Shown here in pieces: positions 6,075 through 26,507 of a stretch of DNA of 64,000 bases. Each line of letters begins with the position of its first letter. Within the stretch, counting starts at the first letter, position 1. The notes under the pieces are model-generated. The model was not told the origin of the DNA. It did no database searches and was given only the letters and a program-made list of their open reading frames with translations. A program made the position numbers and the translations under genes. Location of the stretch: contig NZ_JAALCR010000009.1 in assembly GCF_011065895.1 (NCBI RefSeq), forward strand, positions 62,001 to 126,000, written 5' to 3'. Source of the stretch: Paludisphaera rhizosphaerae (lineage in GTDB: Bacteria; Planctomycetota; Planctomycetia; Isosphaerales; Isosphaeraceae).

Positions 6075-6965
6075 TCATGGCCGCTTCTTGGCTTCGAGAA
6101 TCCGCTGCATGTCGGCGAGCATCTCCTCGGTCGGAGCGACTCGGCCCGACTTCATGTCTTCGAGCGAATCTTTCAGAGCATCAATCCGCTCGGCACTTTC
6201 GGCTGCTTCGGCGAGTCTCCGATGCGCAGGATCGGGCATCGTGAGACTCCTTGCCTTCGATTTGCTCTCGAGCTCAGCCTCTCGAGGCCTTGCCGGAATC
6301 TCCATGACCAGCAGCAGTCGATCTCCCTGGACTTCGTCGACTCCGAAGCGATCGAGGAGGGAGATGGGCCGGCGGGCACAGGCGGTGGCGATCCTGCGGA
6401 TTTCGTCGTCGGCCAGGCGGATGGAAGGGGCATGGCGAGGGAGGATGAAGGGGTGGGCCTCGGCGGGGAGATCGGCTCCGATCCGGCTGGCGACGGCCTG
6501 GGCGATCCGCTGTTTCTCCGCCGTGAATGTGCCGTCGGGATAGGGTTGCGTGTCGGCGAACAGCTTTCGCGCGCAGAGGTAGACGAACGGATTCATCGTC
6601 GTCGCCCAGACGATCAGTTTTCGGCCGTTGGCGTCCTCCCACTGTTGGGCGTCACGGATGGACTGCTGGATGAGGCGGACGACCTTGCCGGTCCCCTTCA
6701 CGTCCGGCCGGGGGGCGCAGACGCCCAGGTAGAGGACCGGGAGTTCCCGGCCGTCGATCTCGAGCGACTCGTAGTTGACCAGGAAGAAGCCCTGCAAGTC
6801 GCCCCGCCGGTCTTGCGAGAGGTAAAGGGTGCCGAGCCGGTCGATCTCCCCGTCCAGGCGGGCGTCGTCGTGGGTGAAGCTCCCCGAGGCGACATCGTGG
6901 ATCTGGCGCCGCAGATGGGCGTCGTTGCGGAAGGAGCCGTCGCGAAGGACCTCGATCTGGGACAT
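6075..6965 (-). CDS. GNAT-like acyltransferase fold protein downstream of a hybrid kinase
   Basis: A 296-residue cytosolic protein. The middle has strands LQGFFLVNYESLEIDGREL and PVLYLGVCAPRPD followed by KGTGKVVRLIQQSIRDAQQW (about residues 90-109), which resembles the acetyl-CoA-binding motif A of GNAT enzymes (basic-x-x-G-x-G/A). The C-terminal 60 residues are helical and charged. The start at 6965 follows the stop of the hybrid histidine kinase by 22 bases on the same strand, so the two probably share a transcript and this protein could be an output of, or an accessory to, that signalling system. The GNAT call is moderate; the substrate is unknown. Confidence 0.65.
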   Translation of the reverse strand: MSQIEVLRDGSFRNDAHLRRQIHDVASGSFTHDDARLDGEIDRLGTLYLSQDRRGDLQGFFLVNYESLEIDGRELPVLYLGVCAPRPDVKGTGKVVRLIQQSIRDAQQWEDANGRKLIVWATTMNPFVYLCARKLFADTQPYPDGTFTAEKQRIAQAVASRIGADLPAEAHPFILPRHAPSIRLADDEIRRIATACARRPISLLDRFGVDEVQGDRLLLVMEIPARPREAELESKSKARSLTMPDPAHRRLAEAAESAERIDALKDSLEDMKSGRVAPTEEMLADMQRILEAKKRP

Positions 6966-6987
6966 CGCCGTGATCCTCCGTCCGGGA

Positions 6988-9900
6988 TTACCTCGGCATC
7001 CAGACGCGGACCAGGGAGAGGAGCTTCTCAACGTCGAGGGGCTTGGCCATGTAGTCGTTGGCTCCGGCGGAGATGCATTTCTCCTGATCGTCGGGCATGG
7101 CCTTGGCGGTCAGCATGATGATGGGGAGATATTTCCACTCGTTCCGCTTGCGGATCTCGCGGACGGCGGTGAGGCCGTCCATCTCCGGCATCATGACGTC
7201 CATGAGGACCAGGTCGATCCGGAGCGCGGGATCGGCCCCGGACGTTTCCAGGGCTTCCAGCGACTCGCGGCCGTTGCGGGCGATCTGCACGATCGAGCCC
7301 CGGCGCTCCAGGACGCTGGTGAGCGCGAAGACGTTGCGGACGTCGTCCTCCACGATCAGGACTCGCTTGCCCTCGAGCGCGGCGTCGCGGCTCTGGGCCC
7401 GTTCGAGCATCCGCTGCTGTTCCGGAGGAAGGTCGGCCACGACCTGGTGGAGGAAGAGCGTCACCTCGTCCAGCAGCCGTTCGGGGGACTTGGCGCCCTT
7501 GATGATGATCGACTTCGAATAGCGACGGAGCGTCTGTTCCTGCTCGGCCGTCAACTCGCGCCCGGTGTAGACGATGACCGGCGGGAACGAGTAGGCGTCC
7601 TCACGGCTCAGCGTCTCCAGCAGCGAGTATCCCGAGGCGTCCGGCAACGAGAGGTCCAGGACCATGCAGTCGAACGTCTCCTCCTTGAGCCGGGCGAGGC
7701 ATTCCGCAGCGCTCCGGACGCCGACGGTCTCGACGTCGTGGGTGCCCAGGAGTTTGCGGACGCTGTCGAGCTGAACGGCGTCGTCCTCGACCACGAGCAC
7801 CCGGCGCATTCGACGAGAGAACCGCCTCTCCAGGCCGCCGAGGGCCTGGATCAACTCATCCCGCTTGACCGGCTTGAGCATGTAGCCGACCGCGCCCAAC
7901 GAGAGCGCCGTCTGTGCGTAGTCGCCGCCGGAGACGACGTGGACGGGGATGTGCCTTGTGCGGGCGTCGTGCTTGAGGCGGTCGAGCACGGTGAGCCCCG
8001 ACTGGTCGGGAAGGCCGACGTCGAGCACGATGGCGCTGGGGAGATACTGAACGGCCACCGCCACCGCTTCCTCGGCCGTCGCCGCGACCAGGCACTGGAA
8101 GTCCAGCTCCCGGGCCAGGTCGTAGAGGATTCTCGCGAAGGCCTCGTCGTCCTCGACCACCAGGATGACGCGGCCGTTGCCATTGAGGCGCTCTCGGTCG
8201 TCGTCGATTCGCCTTGGAGCGATGGGCGACGATGGAGCAGCCTCGACCGGGCGTCGGGGCTGATCGACGGAGGCGTCGGGGACTGCGTCGCTCAGTACGG
8301 CGCGGGGCGGCGCCTTGTCGATCATCCGGGGCGCGACGAAGCTCGGGTCGTAGGTCGCCGGGATCGTCACCGTGAACGAACTGCCGCGGCCCGGCTGGCT
8401 GTCCAGCTTGATCGATCCGCCGAGAAGCCTCGCCAACTCGCGTGAAATGGAGAGCCCCAGGCCGGTGCCGCCGTACTTTCGGTTGGTCGTGCCGTCGGCC
8501 TGGTGGAAGGCCTCGAAGATCACCTCTTGCTGATCGGCGGCGATGCCGATTCCGGTGTCCTCGACCGTGAAGCCGATCCGACCCTTGGCGTCGGTCGCAA
8601 CCACAAGCTTGACCTCGCCGCGCTCGGTAAACTTGAACGCATTCGAGAGAAGGTTTTTGAGCACCTGTTCAAAACGTTGCCTGTCGGTCTGGATCTCCTC
8701 AGGGCAGTCGGGGGCGATCTTCGTCGAGAAGGTGATTCCCTTCTCGTCCGCCACTGGGCCGAAGGTACGCGACAGACCTCCAAGAAGGTCGGCGATCGCG
8801 ACGGGCTCGGGCCGGACGTCCATGCGGCCGGCCTCGATCTTGGAGAGGTCGAGGATGTCGTTGATGAGATTCAGCAGGTCGTTGCCGGCCGACTGGATGG
8901 TCCGAGCGTACTGCACTTCCTCATCGCTCAGACGTCCGCCCGGGTTGTCGGAGAGGAGCTTGGCGAGGATGAGCGACGAGTTGAGCGGGGTCCGAAGCTC
9001 GTGCGACATGTTGGCCAGGAAGTCGGACTTGTAGCGGCTCGCCTGTTCGAGTTCGCGAGTCCGGAGTTCCAGCGACCCCCGCGCCCGGGCGAGACCGTCG
9101 CGCTGGTCTTCGAGCGTCCGCGTCTGCTCCTCAAGCTGCACGTTGACCTGTTCAAGCTCCGCCTGTTGCAGTTCGAGCTGGGACTGCGATTCTTTGAGGG
9201 CGCGGCTCTGCTCGTCAAGCTCCTCGTTCGAGACCCGCAGCTCTTCCGCCTGAGCTTGAAGCTCCTCCGCCTGGCGCTGGGTTTCTTCCAGCAGGTTTTG
9301 AAGGTGCAATCGGTAGTCGGCCGCCCTCAGGGCTCGGGCGATGAAATCCGAGTTTGTGGAGAGGAGCTCGCTCGACAGCGGCCCCATCGTGTGGAGGTTG
9401 CCGAGCTCGATCAGGCCGGCCACGCCGCTTTCGGATTTCACGGGTGAGATGACGAGATGCCCCGGCTTCGATCGGCCGAGTCCGGTTCCGATCGTCAGAT
9501 AGCCTTCGGGGACGTTGTCGAGAACGAAGGCCCGGTCGTCCCTGGCCGCCTGCCATAGCAGACCGTCGCCCGCCTCGACGCGCTCGGGGACGGCGCCGTC
9601 GGTCGGCACGCCGTACGCGGCGATCCGATTGAAGCCGTTTCCAGCCCGGGCGAAGAACGCGCCAGCCTGCGCGCCGAGATATTCGGCGAGGAACTTCAAT
9701 GCGTTCTCGCCGATCTGGTTGGGCTGCTGGTCGCCGGCCAGGGCGGTACTGAGGCCCACCGTCCCCTTCTGGAGCCACTCCCGGCGGCGCTGGGCCAGTG
9801 CGGTTCTGCGGAGGAAGAGCCACAAGGCGGCCGACAAGGCGACGCCCAGCAGGGCGCTGAGGATCCCGCTCCCCACCGCCATCTTGAAGGCGCCGCCGGC

Positions 9901-20739: not shown

Positions 20740-21225
20740 CTACAGGTTCAGAAGACGGTCCCGATCGCGGACGCGGAGGGGCGTCGGACCTGGTCGCGAA
20801 GGGGCGTCGGAGTGAGAGGAGGGCCGATCAAGGTCGACGTCGCCGTCGACGATCCGGCGCGTGAGCGATAGGTAGCTGTAAGGGCTGGGGGGCGTCGGCG
20901 GAGTTTCGTCGCGCGACGGGGGCGCGACCGCGACCGGCGCGGAGGCATCCGCCGAGGCCGCGGCCAGAGCCAGGGCCGATTCGAGGTCCAGGCCGCGGCG
21001 ATGCTCGCGAGACCAGGCCGCGCCGAGGCCGGCCGTCGCCAGGGCCAGCGCGACGGCCGCGGCGGCGACGACTCTCAGGGGGCGGCGGCCTTCGGCGAGG
21101 CCTGCGGCGCGGCCGGCTTCGTAGAGGGTCGCACCACGGTCCAGGCCGCCGGCCGAGGGTCGCCAGCCGTCGAGCCGGGATTCCAGCGCGGTCAGGTCGT
21201 CGATTCGGTCGTCGTTGATGGACAT
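20740..21225 (-). CDS. probable membrane anti-sigma factor
   Basis: A 161-residue protein with an N-terminal cytosolic part (residues 1-50, helical), one membrane segment (about 55-75, LRVVAAAAVALALATAGLGAAW) and a short, Pro- and Ser-rich exterior tail. It lacks the zinc-binding HxxxCxxC of the other anti-sigma candidates. Its start overlaps the end of the ECF gene by 34 bases, a strong sign of coupled translation and of a partner role. The anti-sigma call is therefore from position and topology, not from sequence family. Confidence 0.6.
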   Translation of the reverse strand: MSINDDRIDDLTALESRLDGWRPSAGGLDRGATLYEAGRAAGLAEGRRPLRVVAAAAVALALATAGLGAAWSREHRRGLDLESALALAAASADASAPVAVAPPSRDETPPTPPSPYSYLSLTRRIVDGDVDLDRPSSHSDAPSRPGPTPLRVRDRDRLLNL

Positions 21226-21704
21226 GGTCGTTCCAGCCTTTCCTGAAGCCGGGCGAGCCCGGACTTGTATCGTCGATGCGCGGCGGCCGTGGAACACCCT
21301 TGAAGCACGGCGATCTGGTCGAAGGTCAGTCCGCCCCAGATGCGGGCTGTGACGGCTTCGCGGGACTCGGCGTCCAACTCGGCTAAGAGCGAGGACGCGT
21401 CACGGGCGTCGAGCCGGTCGTCCACCGAGGCGAACCAGGCGTCGGCCTCCGATCGGCTGACCAGCCCCTCGCGGGCCCGGCGCCGGCGGTCGCCGCGGTG
21501 GGCGGAGACCGCCGCGTTGCGGACGACGCGATGGAGCCAGACGGCCGGTTCGTCGGGCAAGCGCCCCTGCCGCGCCAGGGCGACGAAGGCGTCTTGCACC
21601 AGATCCTCGGCCTCGGCGGCGTCGCGCCACTGGCGGGCGTAGAGGACCAGGGCCGCCGCGTGGGCGTCGAAGAGGCGTCCCAACACGTCCGGCCCGATCG
21701 TCAT
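21192..21704 (-). CDS. ECF-type RNA polymerase sigma factor
   Basis: A 170-residue sigma-70 family ECF factor. Region 2 includes YARQWRDAAEAEDLVQDAFVALARQG with the D-L-V-Q-D-A-F motif, and WLHRVVRNAAVSAHRGDRRR is the end of region 2. Region 4 has LDAESREAVTARIWGGLTFD and QGCSTAAAHRRYKSGLARLQ, the DNA-recognition helix for the -35 element. It has no extra C-terminal domain. It is followed by the TM anti-sigma candidate with a 34-base overlap and then by the secreted 490-residue protein. The ECF subgroup cannot be named from sequence alone. Confidence 0.92.
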   Translation of the reverse strand: MTIGPDVLGRLFDAHAAALVLYARQWRDAAEAEDLVQDAFVALARQGRLPDEPAVWLHRVVRNAAVSAHRGDRRRRAREGLVSRSEADAWFASVDDRLDARDASSLLAELDAESREAVTARIWGGLTFDQIAVLQGCSTAAAHRRYKSGLARLQERLERPCPSTTTESTT

Positions 21705-21829
21705 GCCCGTCGCCTCCCGATGGCCCTGGCGACGGCCCGTCCGTCTCCCCATGAGAGTACACGCCGCGGGCGGCGAGATTTCTCGGGGGCGATGAATTTG
21801 ACGAGTGCATCGGGCGGCACGGGTGCCCT

Positions 21830-22129
21830 TTACACGTCCCGTCGTTCGTCGGGGGAGGCGTCGTGGAGGGTGCGGAGAATTCGGGCTCGCGCCTCGGCGC
21901 TGAGGGCGTCGAGCTCGATCGATTCGCCCAAGGTTCTTTGGCGGCAGGCTTTGCGGAGGAACTGGATCTGGCGGCGGAAGCGACGACAGGGCGGGCAGAT
22001 GATCAGATGGCCGCCCAACGCCAGGCGGTCGACGAGGTCGAGCGGCTCGTCGAGCTGGCGCGAGGCCAGCTCGGACGCCGAATCGCACGCGAGGGTCAGG
22101 ATCGAGCGGAGCCGTCGCAATCGCTTCAT
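21830..22129 (-). CDS. small zinc-type anti-sigma factor (ZAS-like)
   Basis: A 99-residue soluble protein without a membrane helix. It keeps the complete zinc-associated anti-sigma pattern: C15, H41, C45 and C48 (C-x25-HLIICPPC), with an extra C62. In the known ZAS family (RsrA, ChrR) this site binds zinc, and in some members it senses disulfide stress. ATG overlaps the TGA of the ECF gene upstream by four bases (ATGA), so the pair is translationally coupled. Being soluble and of minimal size, it fits a cytosolic redox or metal sensor better than an envelope sensor. Confidence 0.85.
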   Translation of the reverse strand: MKRLRRLRSILTLACDSASELASRQLDEPLDLVDRLALGGHLIICPPCRRFRRQIQFLRKACRQRTLGESIELDALSAEARARILRTLHDASPDERRDV

Positions 22130-22755
22130 GGACGTCTCGGAGGGCCGTCGGCGTCGGTGCCGAACCAGTGTTTCTCCAGGCAGGCCCGGAGCAGGATCCG
22201 CGCCCGGTGGAGCCGGACTCGCAGGTTGCCGGGGTTGACGCGGAGGTCGACGCGGAGTTGATCAAGTTCCACGCCCTCGACCTCCCGGAGCAGGAAGGCC
22301 CTGGCGAGGTGGCCGGGGAGGCGAGACGAGCAGTCCTCGAACACCCGCCAGAAGTCGGCGTCGTCGAGCGCCGCCTCGGGGGATCGCCATTTCGCCGGGG
22401 CTTCCCGCCAGCGGCCCCGGGCGTCGAACAGGTCCGACGACGGCCGATCGCCGGGACCGGGGAGGTCCGCTTCGATCATGGCCGAACTCGACCGCTCACG
22501 GCGATAATGGTCGGCGATCTTCCGTCGGAGAATGCCCAGCAGCCAGGTCCGGGCGGCGGCCTCGCCGCGATAGAGGTGGACGCCCCGGAGGGCTGCAAGG
22601 AGAACGTCCTGGACGAGGTCCTCGGCGATCTCCCGACGACCGACGCGCGCCCGGGCGTAGCGGTAGAGCGCGTCGCCGTGCCGATCCAGCCAGGCGGACG
22701 GGTCGGCGGTCTCGTCGGCAGGCCCGGAGGTCCCAGGGTTCGGAGTGCTCGACAT
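22126..22755 (-). CDS. ECF-type RNA polymerase sigma factor in a redoxin operon
   Basis: A 209-residue ECF sigma factor. Region 2 has WLDRHGDALYRYARARVG, AEDLVQDVLLAALRG and TWLLGILRRKIADHYRRER. Region 4 is partly diverged (LDQLRVDLRVNPGNLRVRLHRARILLRACLEKHWFG), including ARILLR of the helix-turn-helix. It starts 12 bases after the stop of the redoxin gene on the same strand, with the DUF1223 gene upstream of that, and is followed by the ZAS-like anti-sigma gene in a 4-base overlap. The four genes therefore look like a single operon. Confidence 0.92.
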   Translation of the reverse strand: MSSTPNPGTSGPADETADPSAWLDRHGDALYRYARARVGRREIAEDLVQDVLLAALRGVHLYRGEAAARTWLLGILRRKIADHYRRERSSSAMIEADLPGPGDRPSSDLFDARGRWREAPAKWRSPEAALDDADFWRVFEDCSSRLPGHLARAFLLREVEGVELDQLRVDLRVNPGNLRVRLHRARILLRACLEKHWFGTDADGPPRRP

Positions 22756-22767
22756 CGCGGCGGGGCC

Positions 22768-23343
22768 TCACTCGCCCCCGGTTCGCATGCCCGGGGCTTG
22801 CAAGATCTCGGGCGCCTTCACGCGTCCGCCGTGCCCATGGCTGACCTTCGCGAAGGCGACCTTACGCCCCGGGCCGATCACGAACGTGGAGGGGTAAGCC
22901 GTCTCGCCCGGGGCGTCCCAGCGGAGCCCGTAGGCCCTGGTCACGGCGAAGTCGGGATCCAGCACGAGGTCGAAGTTGTCGGGCAGCCCCTTGCCCGACG
23001 CGAAGTCCTGGGCGTGCGCCTTCAGGGCTTCGGCCGGGCCGGGATAGAGCAGGACGACCCGGGCCTTTCGCTCGCGGAACTGACCGGCATTGCGGACCAG
23101 CTCGGCGACTTGCGCCGTACAGGCCGGGCACTCGTAGCCCGGCCAGCCCCGGAGGACCACCAGGACCACGGGCCCCCTCTCGGTCAGCGTCTCCAACCGA
23201 ACGGCCCCGTCGGCGAGGGTTTTGAGGGTGAAGTCCGGGGCCAGGCCCCCGACGCTCGGCGGAGCGACGGGGCCGGCCGCCAGGGCGCCGGCGACCAGGA
23301 ACAGGAAACCGCAAGGAGGTGAAAGACGGTGAATCGTACGCAC
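22768..23343 (-). CDS. secreted redoxin (AhpC/TSA-like) with a CxxC
   Basis: A 191-residue exported thioredoxin-fold protein. The Sec signal (RLSPPCGFLFLVAGALA) leads to a peroxiredoxin-like domain with LAPDFTLKTLADGAVRLETL and LRGWPGYECPACTAQVAELV. C72 and C75 form an ECPAC redox pair at the active position. I start it at GTG 23343 because GGGAG is upstream and because the paralogue at 25390 begins at the equivalent place; the longer ATG at 23388 gives a poor signal. It sits 48 bases downstream of the DUF1223 gene and 12 bases before an ECF sigma gene. Possible substrates are extracytoplasmic peroxides or disulfides. Confidence 0.85.
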   Translation of the reverse strand: MRTIHRLSPPCGFLFLVAGALAAGPVAPPSVGGLAPDFTLKTLADGAVRLETLTERGPVVLVVLRGWPGYECPACTAQVAELVRNAGQFRERKARVVLLYPGPAEALKAHAQDFASGKGLPDNFDLVLDPDFAVTRAYGLRWDAPGETAYPSTFVIGPGRKVAFAKVSHGHGGRVKAPEILQAPGMRTGGE

Positions 23344-23391
23344 GGCAAGTCTCCCGAGGAACTGATTCCCACCAAGGATTCCACACATCGG

Positions 23392-24201
23392 TCACTTCGC
23401 TTTCGTCGCCCGCCACGGGATGTCGACGGCCTGGTAGACGACGGCCGTGCGCTTGTTCTGGACGAAGCAGGCCAGCCGCAGCCTGTCACGCTTCCAGGCG
23501 GGGTCGATCGTGAAGGCGAACTGCTTCGACGCCGGGGCGGTCCCATTCAACTCGACGAAATCGTACTCGGTCCGGCGGGCCGGGAACCGGGCGATCAGGG
23601 TCTTGCCGGCGTTCTCCCCAGACTGGACGTCGGTCGAGACGCCGTCCTCGCGAAGCACCGCGCAGACGAGCAGCGGCGCGTCGTCGAGCTTCGTCGATCG
23701 GCGAGCGACCGCGACGAACGCCTTGCCCGACAGTCCATCCTCAGCGACGTCGAGTTTCACGTCCAGCGACACGGCGGGCGGTTTGGTCCGAGCCGCGCGG
23801 ATCGCGGCGGCGGCCGAGGCCGGGTCGCGGCCGTTCACCGACCGGGCGCCGTCGATCATCAGCATCGGCGTATAGTAGAGGCCGTACGATTCGGGCTTGG
23901 GCCCGGTGTAGACGTCGTTGTAGACCATCTGCCGCTGGCTGTAGATCGGGTCGGAGAAGACGTCTTTCCACGGCTTGTTGAAGTAATCGACGTGGAAGGC
24001 GATGGGGACGATCCCCGGGTTCTCGGCGGCGAGCCGGCCCAGGATCTCCTCGGCGGCGGGGCACATGTCGCACCCCTGCGAGGTGTACAACTCGACGAGG
24101 ACCCCGCGCTTGGACGACGAGGGCTCCTCAGCGGCCGAGGAGGAGGGGAGGGCCGCCAGGGCGACGACGACTGCGGCGAGGAGCCGGCTTTGAGGGGGCA
24201 T
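23392..24201 (-). CDS. DUF1223 thioredoxin-like secreted protein
   Basis: A 269-residue exported member of DUF1223, which has a thioredoxin-like N-terminal half. After the signal (LLAAVVVALAALPSSSAAEE), VELYTSQGCDMCPAAEEILGRL contains the conserved C44-D-M-C47 pair, followed by FHVDYFNKPWKDVFSDPIYS and YTPMLMIDGARSVNGRD, both typical of the family, and a C-terminal beta domain. The function of DUF1223 is not established; an extracytoplasmic disulfide role is inferred from the CxxC. ATG 24201 is first in the probable operon DUF1223, redoxin, ECF sigma, ZAS anti-sigma. A decayed paralogue lies at 26023-26418. Confidence 0.85.
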   Translation of the reverse strand: MPPQSRLLAAVVVALAALPSSSAAEEPSSSKRGVLVELYTSQGCDMCPAAEEILGRLAAENPGIVPIAFHVDYFNKPWKDVFSDPIYSQRQMVYNDVYTGPKPESYGLYYTPMLMIDGARSVNGRDPASAAAAIRAARTKPPAVSLDVKLDVAEDGLSGKAFVAVARRSTKLDDAPLLVCAVLREDGVSTDVQSGENAGKTLIARFPARRTEYDFVELNGTAPASKQFAFTIDPAWKRDRLRLACFVQNKRTAVVYQAVDIPWRATKAK

Positions 24202-24444
24202 TGAGGAGTCTCCTGGAGCGAGGCCGCGACGGAGGAGGTCGAGGCGGTCCGGTCGCCCCGAGGACGCTGGCAAGACGCCGCCCGCGGCCGAGTTATTCGC
24301 CCCTATCGCCGATCCGCAGGAAATCGCCCCGGACGCGTAACGCTCGAAGGGATCCCGCGACTAATGCCAGGGCGACGGCCAGGAGGCCGCGCCGATCCGC
24401 CTCCCATGAGGCACGGTTTCGAGCAATCCAACAGAGGACGATCC
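24202..24444. promoter_or_regulatory. divergent promoter region between DUF1223 operon and PEP-CTERM gene
   Basis: This 243-base spacer must carry promoters for the minus-strand DUF1223-redoxin-ECF operon and the plus-strand PEP-CTERM gene. No clear -10/-35 pair or inverted repeat is seen by eye. Confidence 0.35.
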
Positions 24445-25254
24445 ATGCTGAGAACCCACCTCGCGCGGGCCCGGTCGCTCGCGCTCACCGCCTTTCTCGT
24501 CGTGATCGGTTGTGCATCGGCGGCCGCCGGCGAGTTGCAGATCACGGTGACCAGCAATCAACCGGCCGGCGGCTTCGCATTTTCTCCGGTGTGGTTCGGG
24601 GTCCACGACGGGACCTATCGCACGTTCGCCCCGGGGACGGCGGTCTCGCCGGCCTTGCAGGCGGTCGCCGAGCTGGGAGACCCCTCGGCGCTGGCGACGG
24701 CCTTCACCGGCCACGGCTCGCAGGCGATCGCGGGCTCGGCGCCGATCGGGCCGGGGGGGACGGCTTCGACGATCCTGGACGTCGCCTCCCCGACGACGCA
24801 GCAGTACCTGAGCTTCGCGTCGATGGTGGTCCCCTCGAACGACTTCTTCTTCGGGAACTCCGACCCGTTGGCGTTTCGCTTATTCAACGCCGCCGGCCAG
24901 TTCCTGGGGCCGATCACCATCCAGATCTTCGGCTTGAACGTCTGGGACGCCGGCAGCGAGCGGAACGACATCGGCTTCGGCGCGGCGTTCATCGTCGGGG
25001 ACGACGCCACGGGCCACGTCGCCGAGAACGGCGTGGTCGCGCCCGTCTTCGGCGGCTCGGCCGACAATTCGGCCTACCTCGCCTCCATCCTGGGCAAGTC
25101 CACGCCGTACGGCTACGACATCTCGCACCTCATGAGCCCCGGCGACCTCATCGCCACGATTCGGATCGAGGCCGTCCCCGAGCCGGCGTCGATCGCGATG
25201 TTCGGCGCGGGCCTCGTCGCGATCGGCGTCGCGACACTTCGGCGGCGCGGCTGA
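24445..25254 (+). CDS. spondin-like secreted protein with PEP-CTERM signal
   Basis: A 269-residue exported protein. A Sec signal (ALTAFLVVIGCASAAAG) is followed by a beta-sandwich with FSPVWFGVHDGTYRTFAPGT and a GDPSALATAFTGHG stretch that resemble the spondin N-terminal domain. The last 24 residues have the PEP-CTERM layout: VPEPAS, a hydrophobic helix (IAMFGAGLVAIGVATL) and a basic RRRG end. PEP-CTERM proteins are sorted by exosortase and often linked to exopolysaccharide; the exosortase is not in this window. AGAGGA precedes ATG 24445. The gene is wedged between the intact and the decayed copy of the redoxin-DUF1223 cassette. Confidence 0.85.
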   Translation: MLRTHLARARSLALTAFLVVIGCASAAAGELQITVTSNQPAGGFAFSPVWFGVHDGTYRTFAPGTAVSPALQAVAELGDPSALATAFTGHGSQAIAGSAPIGPGGTASTILDVASPTTQQYLSFASMVVPSNDFFFGNSDPLAFRLFNAAGQFLGPITIQIFGLNVWDAGSERNDIGFGAAFIVGDDATGHVAENGVVAPVFGGSADNSAYLASILGKSTPYGYDISHLMSPGDLIATIRIEAVPEPASIAMFGAGLVAIGVATLRRRG

Positions 25255-25281
25255 GGCCTTGGGTTACGAACCGAACGACGG

Positions 25282-25306
25282 CGGCTCCGCTCCGGCGGCG
25301 GAGCCG
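25282..25306 (+). terminator. hairpin terminator after the PEP-CTERM gene
   Basis: CGGCTCCG at 25282-25289 and CGGAGCCG at 25299-25306 pair perfectly with a nine-base loop. TTCGTCTCC follows. The position, 27 bases after the stop, and its lying between two convergent genes fit a terminator. Confidence 0.55.
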
Positions 25307-25389
25307 TTCGTCTCCACTGCTCGGCCCGGCTCACCTCGGACGGGGGCCTCGGGCCGGGCCGAGGGGGGCGACGAGTCGCTCTCCTGCTT

Positions 25390-25971
25390 TCAAGGTTGCA
25401 GCGTCGTGGCCGAAACGCCCAGGGCTTGCAGGATTTCGGACGCGTCCGCACGGCCGCCGTGGACGCGGCTGACCTTCGCAAAGGCGACCTTACGGCCGGC
25501 GCCAAGCACGAAGGTGGAGGGATAAGCCGTTTCGTCCCCGCCCTCCCAACGCAGGTTGTAGGCCTTGGTCATAACGTAGTCGGCGTCCAGCACGAGGTCG
25601 AAGTTGCCCGGGAGATCCTTGGCGGCGACGAATGCGTCGGCGGCCGCCTTCAGACCGTCGGCCTCGCCGGGATAGACCAGCACGACCCGGGCGTTTCTCG
25701 CCCGGAACTCCGCGGTTCTTCGGACCAGATCGGCGACCTGTTGCGTGTCGTAAGAGTCCTGGAATCCCGGCCAGCCGCGGAGGAGCACCACGACCGCCGG
25801 CCCTTGCTCCACCAACGCTCCCAGATGGACCGACTTGCCGGCGGGCGTCTTGAGCGTGAAGTCCGGCGCCTGGCCGCCCACGACCGGCGGTTCCTTCGAG
25901 CTCTGCGCCCCGGCGCTGGAGACGAGGAGCAGCAGCAGGCACGGCTGGAAGAGGCGGAGGGCCGAGTGCAT
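25390..25971 (-). CDS. redoxin paralogue without its active-site cysteines
   Basis: A 193-residue exported paralogue of the redoxin at 22768, of the same length and alignable without gaps through residue 80. It keeps the QAPDFTLKTPAGKSVHLGAL and LLRGWPGF blocks and the signal peptide. Where its sister has ECPAC (C72, C75) it has QDSYD, so both redox cysteines are replaced by aspartates, and the mature protein has no other cysteine. It therefore cannot act as a thiol peroxidase or thioredoxin in the usual way. It may be decaying, or kept as a structural or binding protein. The remnant of DUF1223 lies 51 bases upstream. Confidence 0.85.
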   Translation of the reverse strand: MHSALRLFQPCLLLLLVSSAGAQSSKEPPVVGGQAPDFTLKTPAGKSVHLGALVEQGPAVVVLLRGWPGFQDSYDTQQVADLVRRTAEFRARNARVVLVYPGEADGLKAAADAFVAAKDLPGNFDLVLDADYVMTKAYNLRWEGGDETAYPSTFVLGAGRKVAFAKVSRVHGGRADASEILQALGVSATTLQP

Positions 25972-26022
25972 CGTCGAAGTCTCCAGAGGAAATGTAGGGT
26001 CATGTAGAATCATACACGAACA

Positions 26023-26418
26023 TTACTTGGCCGGCAGGCCCTGCCATGGAAGATCGACCGCCTGATGAACGACGGCCGTCCGCTTGTCTTGCACGAAGCA
26101 GGCCAGTCGCAATTTATCGCGATCTCAGGATGGGTCGATTGTGAAGGAGAACTGCCTGGAAACGGGGGCGGATCCACTCAATTCGACCAAGTCGTACTCG
26201 GTGCGACGGGCCGGGTAGCGGGCGATCAGAGTCTTGCCGGCGTTCTCGCCGGAGATCCCCGGATTCTCGGCGGCGGGGCACATGTCGCACCCCTGCGAGG
26301 GGTACAACTCGACGAGGCCCCCGCGCTTCGCTGGGGAGGCGGCCTCCTCGGCGGCCGCGAATTGGACGATCGTCGTCAGGAAGACGGTCACGGCCAGGTG
26401 CAGCCGGCGGAGCGGCAT
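26023..26418 (-). pseudogene. decayed DUF1223 gene (two deletions and one nonsense codon)
   Basis: A remnant of the DUF1223 gene at 23392. The signal region and CDMC pair remain, but nine codons are missing between two CTCGGCGGCG repeats that flank the lost 27 bases in the intact copy, and about 129 codons are missing between NPGI and SGENAGKT. The reading frame is kept. A TGA at 26125-26127 stands where the intact copy has a Trp codon, and the remaining 33 codons past it still read DRDKLRLACFVQDKRTAVVHQ and end in TAA at 26023. The full span of 132 codons equals 269 minus the two deletions and the stop. This shows the gene is dead or reduced to a short secreted peptide. Confidence 0.85.
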
Positions 26419-26507
26419 GAGGGATTCTCCTGAAGCATGCCATCGAGAAAGTCTGTGGCGTTCCCGTCGCCACGAGAATGCGAGCAAGACGACCGCCGCC
26501 GCCAGGC

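Follow-up and report, generated by a model that had tools for sequence, protein, structure and literature searches.

Apparently different fates within a duplicated redoxin-DUF1223 gene pair of Paludisphaera rhizosphaerae: a DUF1223 pseudogene and a redoxin without active-site cysteines

What becomes of a redoxin when both of its active-site cysteines are replaced and the gene beside it is broken? This question is raised by a locus of Paludisphaera rhizosphaerae in which a redoxin-DUF1223 gene pair, as a sequence-only reading had noted, is present twice, in the same order and both times on the minus strand (22768-24201 and 25390-26418). Coordinates refer to the window, which is the whole 64,000-nucleotide stretch of DNA that was analyzed (contig NZ_JAALCR010000009.1, positions 62,001 to 126,000). 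The source is one draft genome of 110 contigs. The features of the locus are the following.

21192-21735 of the window, minus strand: another sigma-factor-like reading frame after the anti-sigma gene, recognized by eye from its translation
21830..22129, minus strand: anti-sigma factor of the zinc-finger type (NF052368, 59.5 bits against a cut-off of 50; synteny in the congener G002)
22126..22755, minus strand: ECF sigma factor that follows immediately downstream of redoxin 1 (TIGR02937, 66.8 bits against a cut-off of 42.9; same order in G002)
22768..23343, minus strand: redoxin copy 1 (AhpC/TSA type), CPAC intact; open reading frame from ATG 23388, GTG start at 23343 proposed
23392..24201 (stop included), minus strand: DUF1223 copy 1, intact; thioredoxin-like (PF06764), with a CDMC motif and, by eye, a signal peptide
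24447..25254, plus strand: unrelated exported protein with a PEP-CTERM-like tail, between the cassettes; a homologue lies upstream of the single cassette of G002
25390..25971, minus strand: redoxin copy 2, open frame, QDSYD versus a QCPxC active site; signal peptide by eye
25747..25758, minus strand: four altered codons, GAC TCT TAC GAC, replacing Cys-Pro-x-Cys; 9 of 12 nucleotides differ
26022..26418, minus strand: DUF1223 copy 2, read as a pseudogene; in-frame deletions of 27 and 387 nucleotides, TGA for Trp, and T to P beside the CDMC motif
26419..26503 (copy 2) and up to 24289 (copy 1), minus strand: upstream stretch common to both copies, by sequence comparison

The PEP-CTERM-like gene at 24447-25254 has no match in Pfam or NCBIfam. 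The two copies are 72-79% identical at the DNA level over three ungapped blocks, and their redoxins are the sole two matches for this redoxin type in a search of the whole 8.05 Mb genome. The redoxins probably start at GTG 23343 (copy 1) and ATG 25971 (copy 2), each codon preceded by GGAGACTT. In copy 1, the DUF1223 gene, the redoxin gene, and the sigma/anti-sigma pair probably form one transcription unit.

Both redoxins belong to the AhpC/TSA-Redoxin superfamily (PF00578, PF08534). The AhpC-TSA profile gives 77.1 bits for redoxin 1 and 54.8 bits for redoxin 2, and because these scores exceed the curated cut-off of 26, the assignment of both copies is not due to chance. The top NCBIfam match for both is the SelL-related redox protein (NF040769), at 39.4 and 31.7 bits, far under the curated cut-off of 120, and by that model they are not members. 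AlphaFold2, run with the family alignment, predicts a thioredoxin fold with a mean pLDDT of 90.0 for redoxin 2 versus 92.9 for redoxin 1; the alignment consists mostly of cysteine-bearing relatives, so the redoxin 2 model is not independent proof of folding. The top Foldseek matches in the PDB for both models are peroxiredoxins and ResA, and by eye, a signal-peptide-like start is kept in both. What sets redoxin 2 apart from the superfamily is that it has no cysteine at either active-site position, whereas redoxin 1 has the redox cysteines. DUF1223 (PF06764) has been classed as thioredoxin-like (PMC3091736) and has a solved member, Atu2684 (2axo). Copy 1 is a full member, with 145.2 bits against a cut-off of 30.7 over profile positions 1-202 of 202, and matches 2axo with an E-value of 1.8e-11. 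Of 52 conserved positions, 27 are missing from the copy 2 remnant, which fails the whole-domain match; in a scan of the source genome at E 1e-10, copy 1 was the single match and the remnant was not recovered.

Trees of DUF1223, of the redoxin, and of their concatenation all group copies 1 and 2 together. Topology tests on nucleotides favor sister copies (AU 0.998) and reject both alternatives (0.002). Those on proteins are weaker, with 0.954 for sister copies against 0.078 and 0.009, rejecting one of the two alternatives. Gene conversion could also produce sister-like copies. On these trees, the copies appear to have split after the lineage parted from its sampled congeners. The split could also be dated, as the sequence-only reading had proposed: by neutral-scaled branch lengths, the duplication falls at about 0.9 of the divergence between G002 and G003. 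With copy 2 left free, the copy branches measure 2.15 and 2.09, and the G002 and G003 branches, counted from where the two diverge, measure 2.50 and 2.38. Because these lengths are near each other, the duplication is old in sequence terms.

Relatives were drawn from a sample of 45 genomes, which is the family and also all that was sampled of the order, with the source genome counted in. A strong match to redoxin 1 (E 1e-20 or better) was found in 7 of the 45 and DUF1223 in 25. The idea that the second copy might be intact in related genomes did not hold: a second copy is absent from every sampled relative, and G002, G003, and G007 give one full match each; therefore, the duplication is private to this lineage among the sampled genomes. 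G002, of the same genus, carries a single cassette in the order PEP-CTERM-like gene, DUF1223, redoxin, sigma, anti-sigma, as around copy 1, and a single DUF1223-redoxin pair is present in G003 and likewise in G007. In G012 (locus L027, about 6423-7061), a frameshifted redoxin remnant with its active-site half missing lies directly after an intact DUF1223 gene. Judged from this remnant, the redoxin half of the pair is independently lost in another genus.

The three lesions first read in the second DUF1223 gene are all there. Nine codons (27 nucleotides) are gone between two CGCCGCCGAG repeats, 387 nucleotides (129 codons) are gone from the middle, both in frame, and TGA stands where copy 1 has TGG (Trp). 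In a conserved-position set that leaves out L139 and L165, 27 of the 52 positions lie outside the remnant, and of the 25 that survive the deletions, 24 are kept. A codon fit of the remnant, with the stop codon and four misaligned codons removed, gave an omega of about 0.04, equal to the background, and rejected an omega of 1 with three choices of outgroup (2dlnL 8.4-10.3). An earlier fit in which copy 1 was also free placed that branch at zero length with omega at its bound and was not relied on. Because the remnant's omega equals the background and 24 of 25 surviving conserved positions are kept, the second DUF1223 gene appears to have worked for long and broken late; read in this way, it is a young pseudogene that was functional for most of its history.

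Other readings of this gene were considered. Weak matches to SelL-related and Omp28-selenoprotein models prompted the idea of selenocysteine at the TGA, which was ruled out, as copy 1 and four aligned relatives have Trp there. By omega alone, the remnant could encode a functional mini-DUF1223 of 97 residues that stops at the TGA. Against it, the 27 absent positions include most of the thioredoxin fold, and both changes in the N-terminal patch that is kept (V to G and T to P) alter the amino acid. The near-identical patch around the CDMC motif was also considered as a trace of gene conversion within the DUF1223 pair. This was rejected, as single-copy relatives match copy 1 there at 53-60 of 66 nucleotides and copy 2 does so at 61 of 63; because the relatives are about equally similar, constraint at the patch is general.

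In the second redoxin, D and D do occupy the sites of the two active cysteines, ECPAC of copy 1 being replaced by QDSYD. A family profile search at E 1e-25 or better found matches in 94 of 397 genomes of the class, which together with earlier loci gave 107 distinct homologues that are related and not independent; the G012 remnant and sequence duplicates were excluded. At the positions of D50 and D53 (core numbering), the homologues have cysteine in 106 of 106 and 105 of 106 covering rows. The one exception, at the second cysteine, is a Ser (CPLS) in the second G566 paralogue, L243 (G566:C15:70808-71302), a one-cysteine member of the family. Another row, L199 (G538:C1:5495453-5495938), is split by an in-frame TAG in mid-gene, either a nonsense mutation or a sequencing error, with CPLC intact in its first half. 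Among 27 positions that are at least 95% conserved in the 107 homologues, redoxin 2 keeps 25, losing just both cysteines, and redoxin 1 keeps 26. In a 30-homologue set, from which L046 was dropped because it ends before the motif, redoxin 2 keeps 31 of 33 conserved positions outside YQCPxC and 1 of 5 inside (Fisher p 0.001). The CPxC codons are the densest 12-nucleotide difference between the redoxin copies (9 of 12, over 459 nucleotides). A search for the active-site stretch as a copy from elsewhere in the window, with 18 bases and up to 3 mismatches, returned only the self-match.

Selection on the cysteine-less redoxin, for which the sequence-only reading had suggested dN/dS, was estimated at an omega of 0.26 versus a background of 0.08, and 1 was rejected (2dlnL 7.4 versus the background and 7.5 versus 1). 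Over four outgroup choices, 2dlnL ranges from 4.1 to 8.2 versus the background and from 6.5 to 9.8 versus 1, and bootstrap values lie between 0.12 and 0.64, below 1 in 60 of 60. Omega outside the motif is also raised, at 0.24, which on this codon fit shows some general relaxation. Redoxin 2 appears relaxed yet constrained, the constraint being an average over one long branch of one genome that does not show selection acting today. With its catalytic residues gone and its scaffold conserved and constrained, it has the marks of a pseudoenzyme. The earlier view that one cassette is intact and the other decaying or repurposed therefore holds, but the second cassette has no single fate. Its DUF1223 gene, with a TGA and 27 of 52 positions lost, is read as a recent pseudogene. 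The redoxin does not resemble plain decay because the frame, signal peptide (by eye), predicted fold, and 25 of 27 residues are kept and omega is significantly below 1.

Next to copy 2 lies a hydrolase gene with the same direction, and the similarity between the copies reaches to within 5 bp of its stop codon. Because the upstream block common to copy 1 and G002 is absent from copy 2, its expression is uncertain. Transcription of copy 2 would start at the hydrolase promoter or another one, and it would probably depend on read-through from the hydrolase gene. No terminator-like site was found between that gene and copy 2, and a promoter scan also gave nothing. In two of five congeners the hydrolase has matches, all of them distant and lying well away from any cassette, so no empty site is readable.

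We consider it probable that redoxin 2 is a retained, exported, redox-dead pseudoenzyme acting by binding and that its DUF1223 neighbor became dispensable and is now a pseudogene. Another explanation, which we regard as possible though not likely, is that the whole second cassette is decaying, with the redoxin at an earlier stage and its active site hit first, possibly by one complex mutation. The DUF1223 partner is plainly broken, the omega of redoxin 2 is elevated both within the motif and beyond it, the ancestral upstream region is only partly copied, and the broken redoxin beside an intact DUF1223 in G012 is of the same type. Uniform neutral decay, simulated with a neutral phase of 2% to 100% of the branch, removed both cysteines and spared the 24 others in no more than 0.0009 (0.09%) of 20,000 runs, the 24 being the 25 kept positions minus one where copy 1 itself deviates. 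For a previous simulation, based on 33 and 5 positions, the figure was at most 0.05% of runs. These figures are indicative, as the simulations start from copy 1 as a stand-in for the ancestor and the motif was known in advance, which makes them partly post hoc. Keeping the 24 others at d of at least 0.07 has a P of at most 0.02. The other residues could have been kept through a neutral phase lasting a few per cent of the branch, but by arithmetic from the codon fit, the raised omega outside the motif would require neutrality over about a fifth of it. What keeps decay in consideration is that a single recent multi-nucleotide mutation could have replaced the motif, and with little neutral time afterward the gene would look much the same.

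The same cluster of changes can be viewed as a gain. Positive selection might have fixed D-S-Y-D as a new functional site that binds metal or carries out another chemistry. In favor of this are the nine changes in twelve nucleotides exactly at the four CPxC codons, the densest 12-nucleotide stretch of 459, and the keeping of every other near-invariant family residue. A D-S-Y-D-like site occurs in no homologue of the 107-member set, giving no recurrence, and one mutational event could make the same cluster, so we consider this neofunctionalization quite improbable. An error of sequencing or assembly, for which the draft state of the genome might be held responsible, is the least credible explanation by far. 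With about 20-30% of bases different between the copies, collapse or consensus error cannot make copy 2, and both deletions are in frame with changes spread along the whole of it.

For the pseudoenzyme that we prefer, the following course would fit. The DUF1223-redoxin pair was duplicated in this lineage, at an age similar to that of a split between species of the genus. Copy 1 would keep the ancestral role that its families suggest, an exported pair handling thiol-disulfide exchange or peroxide, with a CPxC redoxin and a DUF1223 protein of thioredoxin fold. In redoxin 2, precisely the two cysteines were exchanged for Asp, and purifying selection would have continued to hold the scaffold. Because the scaffold is constrained though the site cannot carry out thiol chemistry, redoxin 2 most likely binds, and it would do so to a partner, a client, or copy 1. 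The second DUF1223 gene would have stayed constrained for most of the time until, late on, two deletions and a nonsense change disrupted it. We infer that the protein is produced, that it binds, and that cysteine loss preceded this break.

A Cys-to-Asp replacement is a laboratory change that mimics the hyperoxidised form. The C54D variant of plant 2-CysPRX is described as mimicking the sulfinylated form and as having binding partners of its own (PMC7346168). Such variants are made in the laboratory, whereas redoxin 2 is a natural gene of a distant exported family with Asp at both positions, and the likeness is suggestive only. By this analogy, redoxin 2 might be a natural, permanently "hyperoxidised-like" redoxin that regulates copy 1 or, once exported, acts as a binding protein or chaperone, with its thiol partner, the second DUF1223, then shed; we think this narrower version unlikely. 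Some cysteine-less thioredoxin-fold proteins are described that, as redoxin 2, retain neither cysteine (PMC2757866).

Within a few kilobases, one duplication has left a redox pair that is intact, a pseudogene of recent origin, and a sister redoxin without the cysteines, which amounts to a small natural experiment. If redoxin 2 is made, a bacterial redoxin would have become a non-enzyme through the loss of exactly two catalytic residues. If it is not made, the locus would date the order in which the pair broke down. Production of redoxin 2 would also support a working link between DUF1223, seldom named in the literature searched, and the neighboring redoxin. Such a link is supported by distant redoxins found beside DUF1223 elsewhere. 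In Aquisphaera insulae (contig L025, 6300-8463), the order is redoxin-DUF1223-redoxin, the second redoxin being distant and on the other side of DUF1223, and distant redoxins adjoin DUF1223 in G006 and G025 too.
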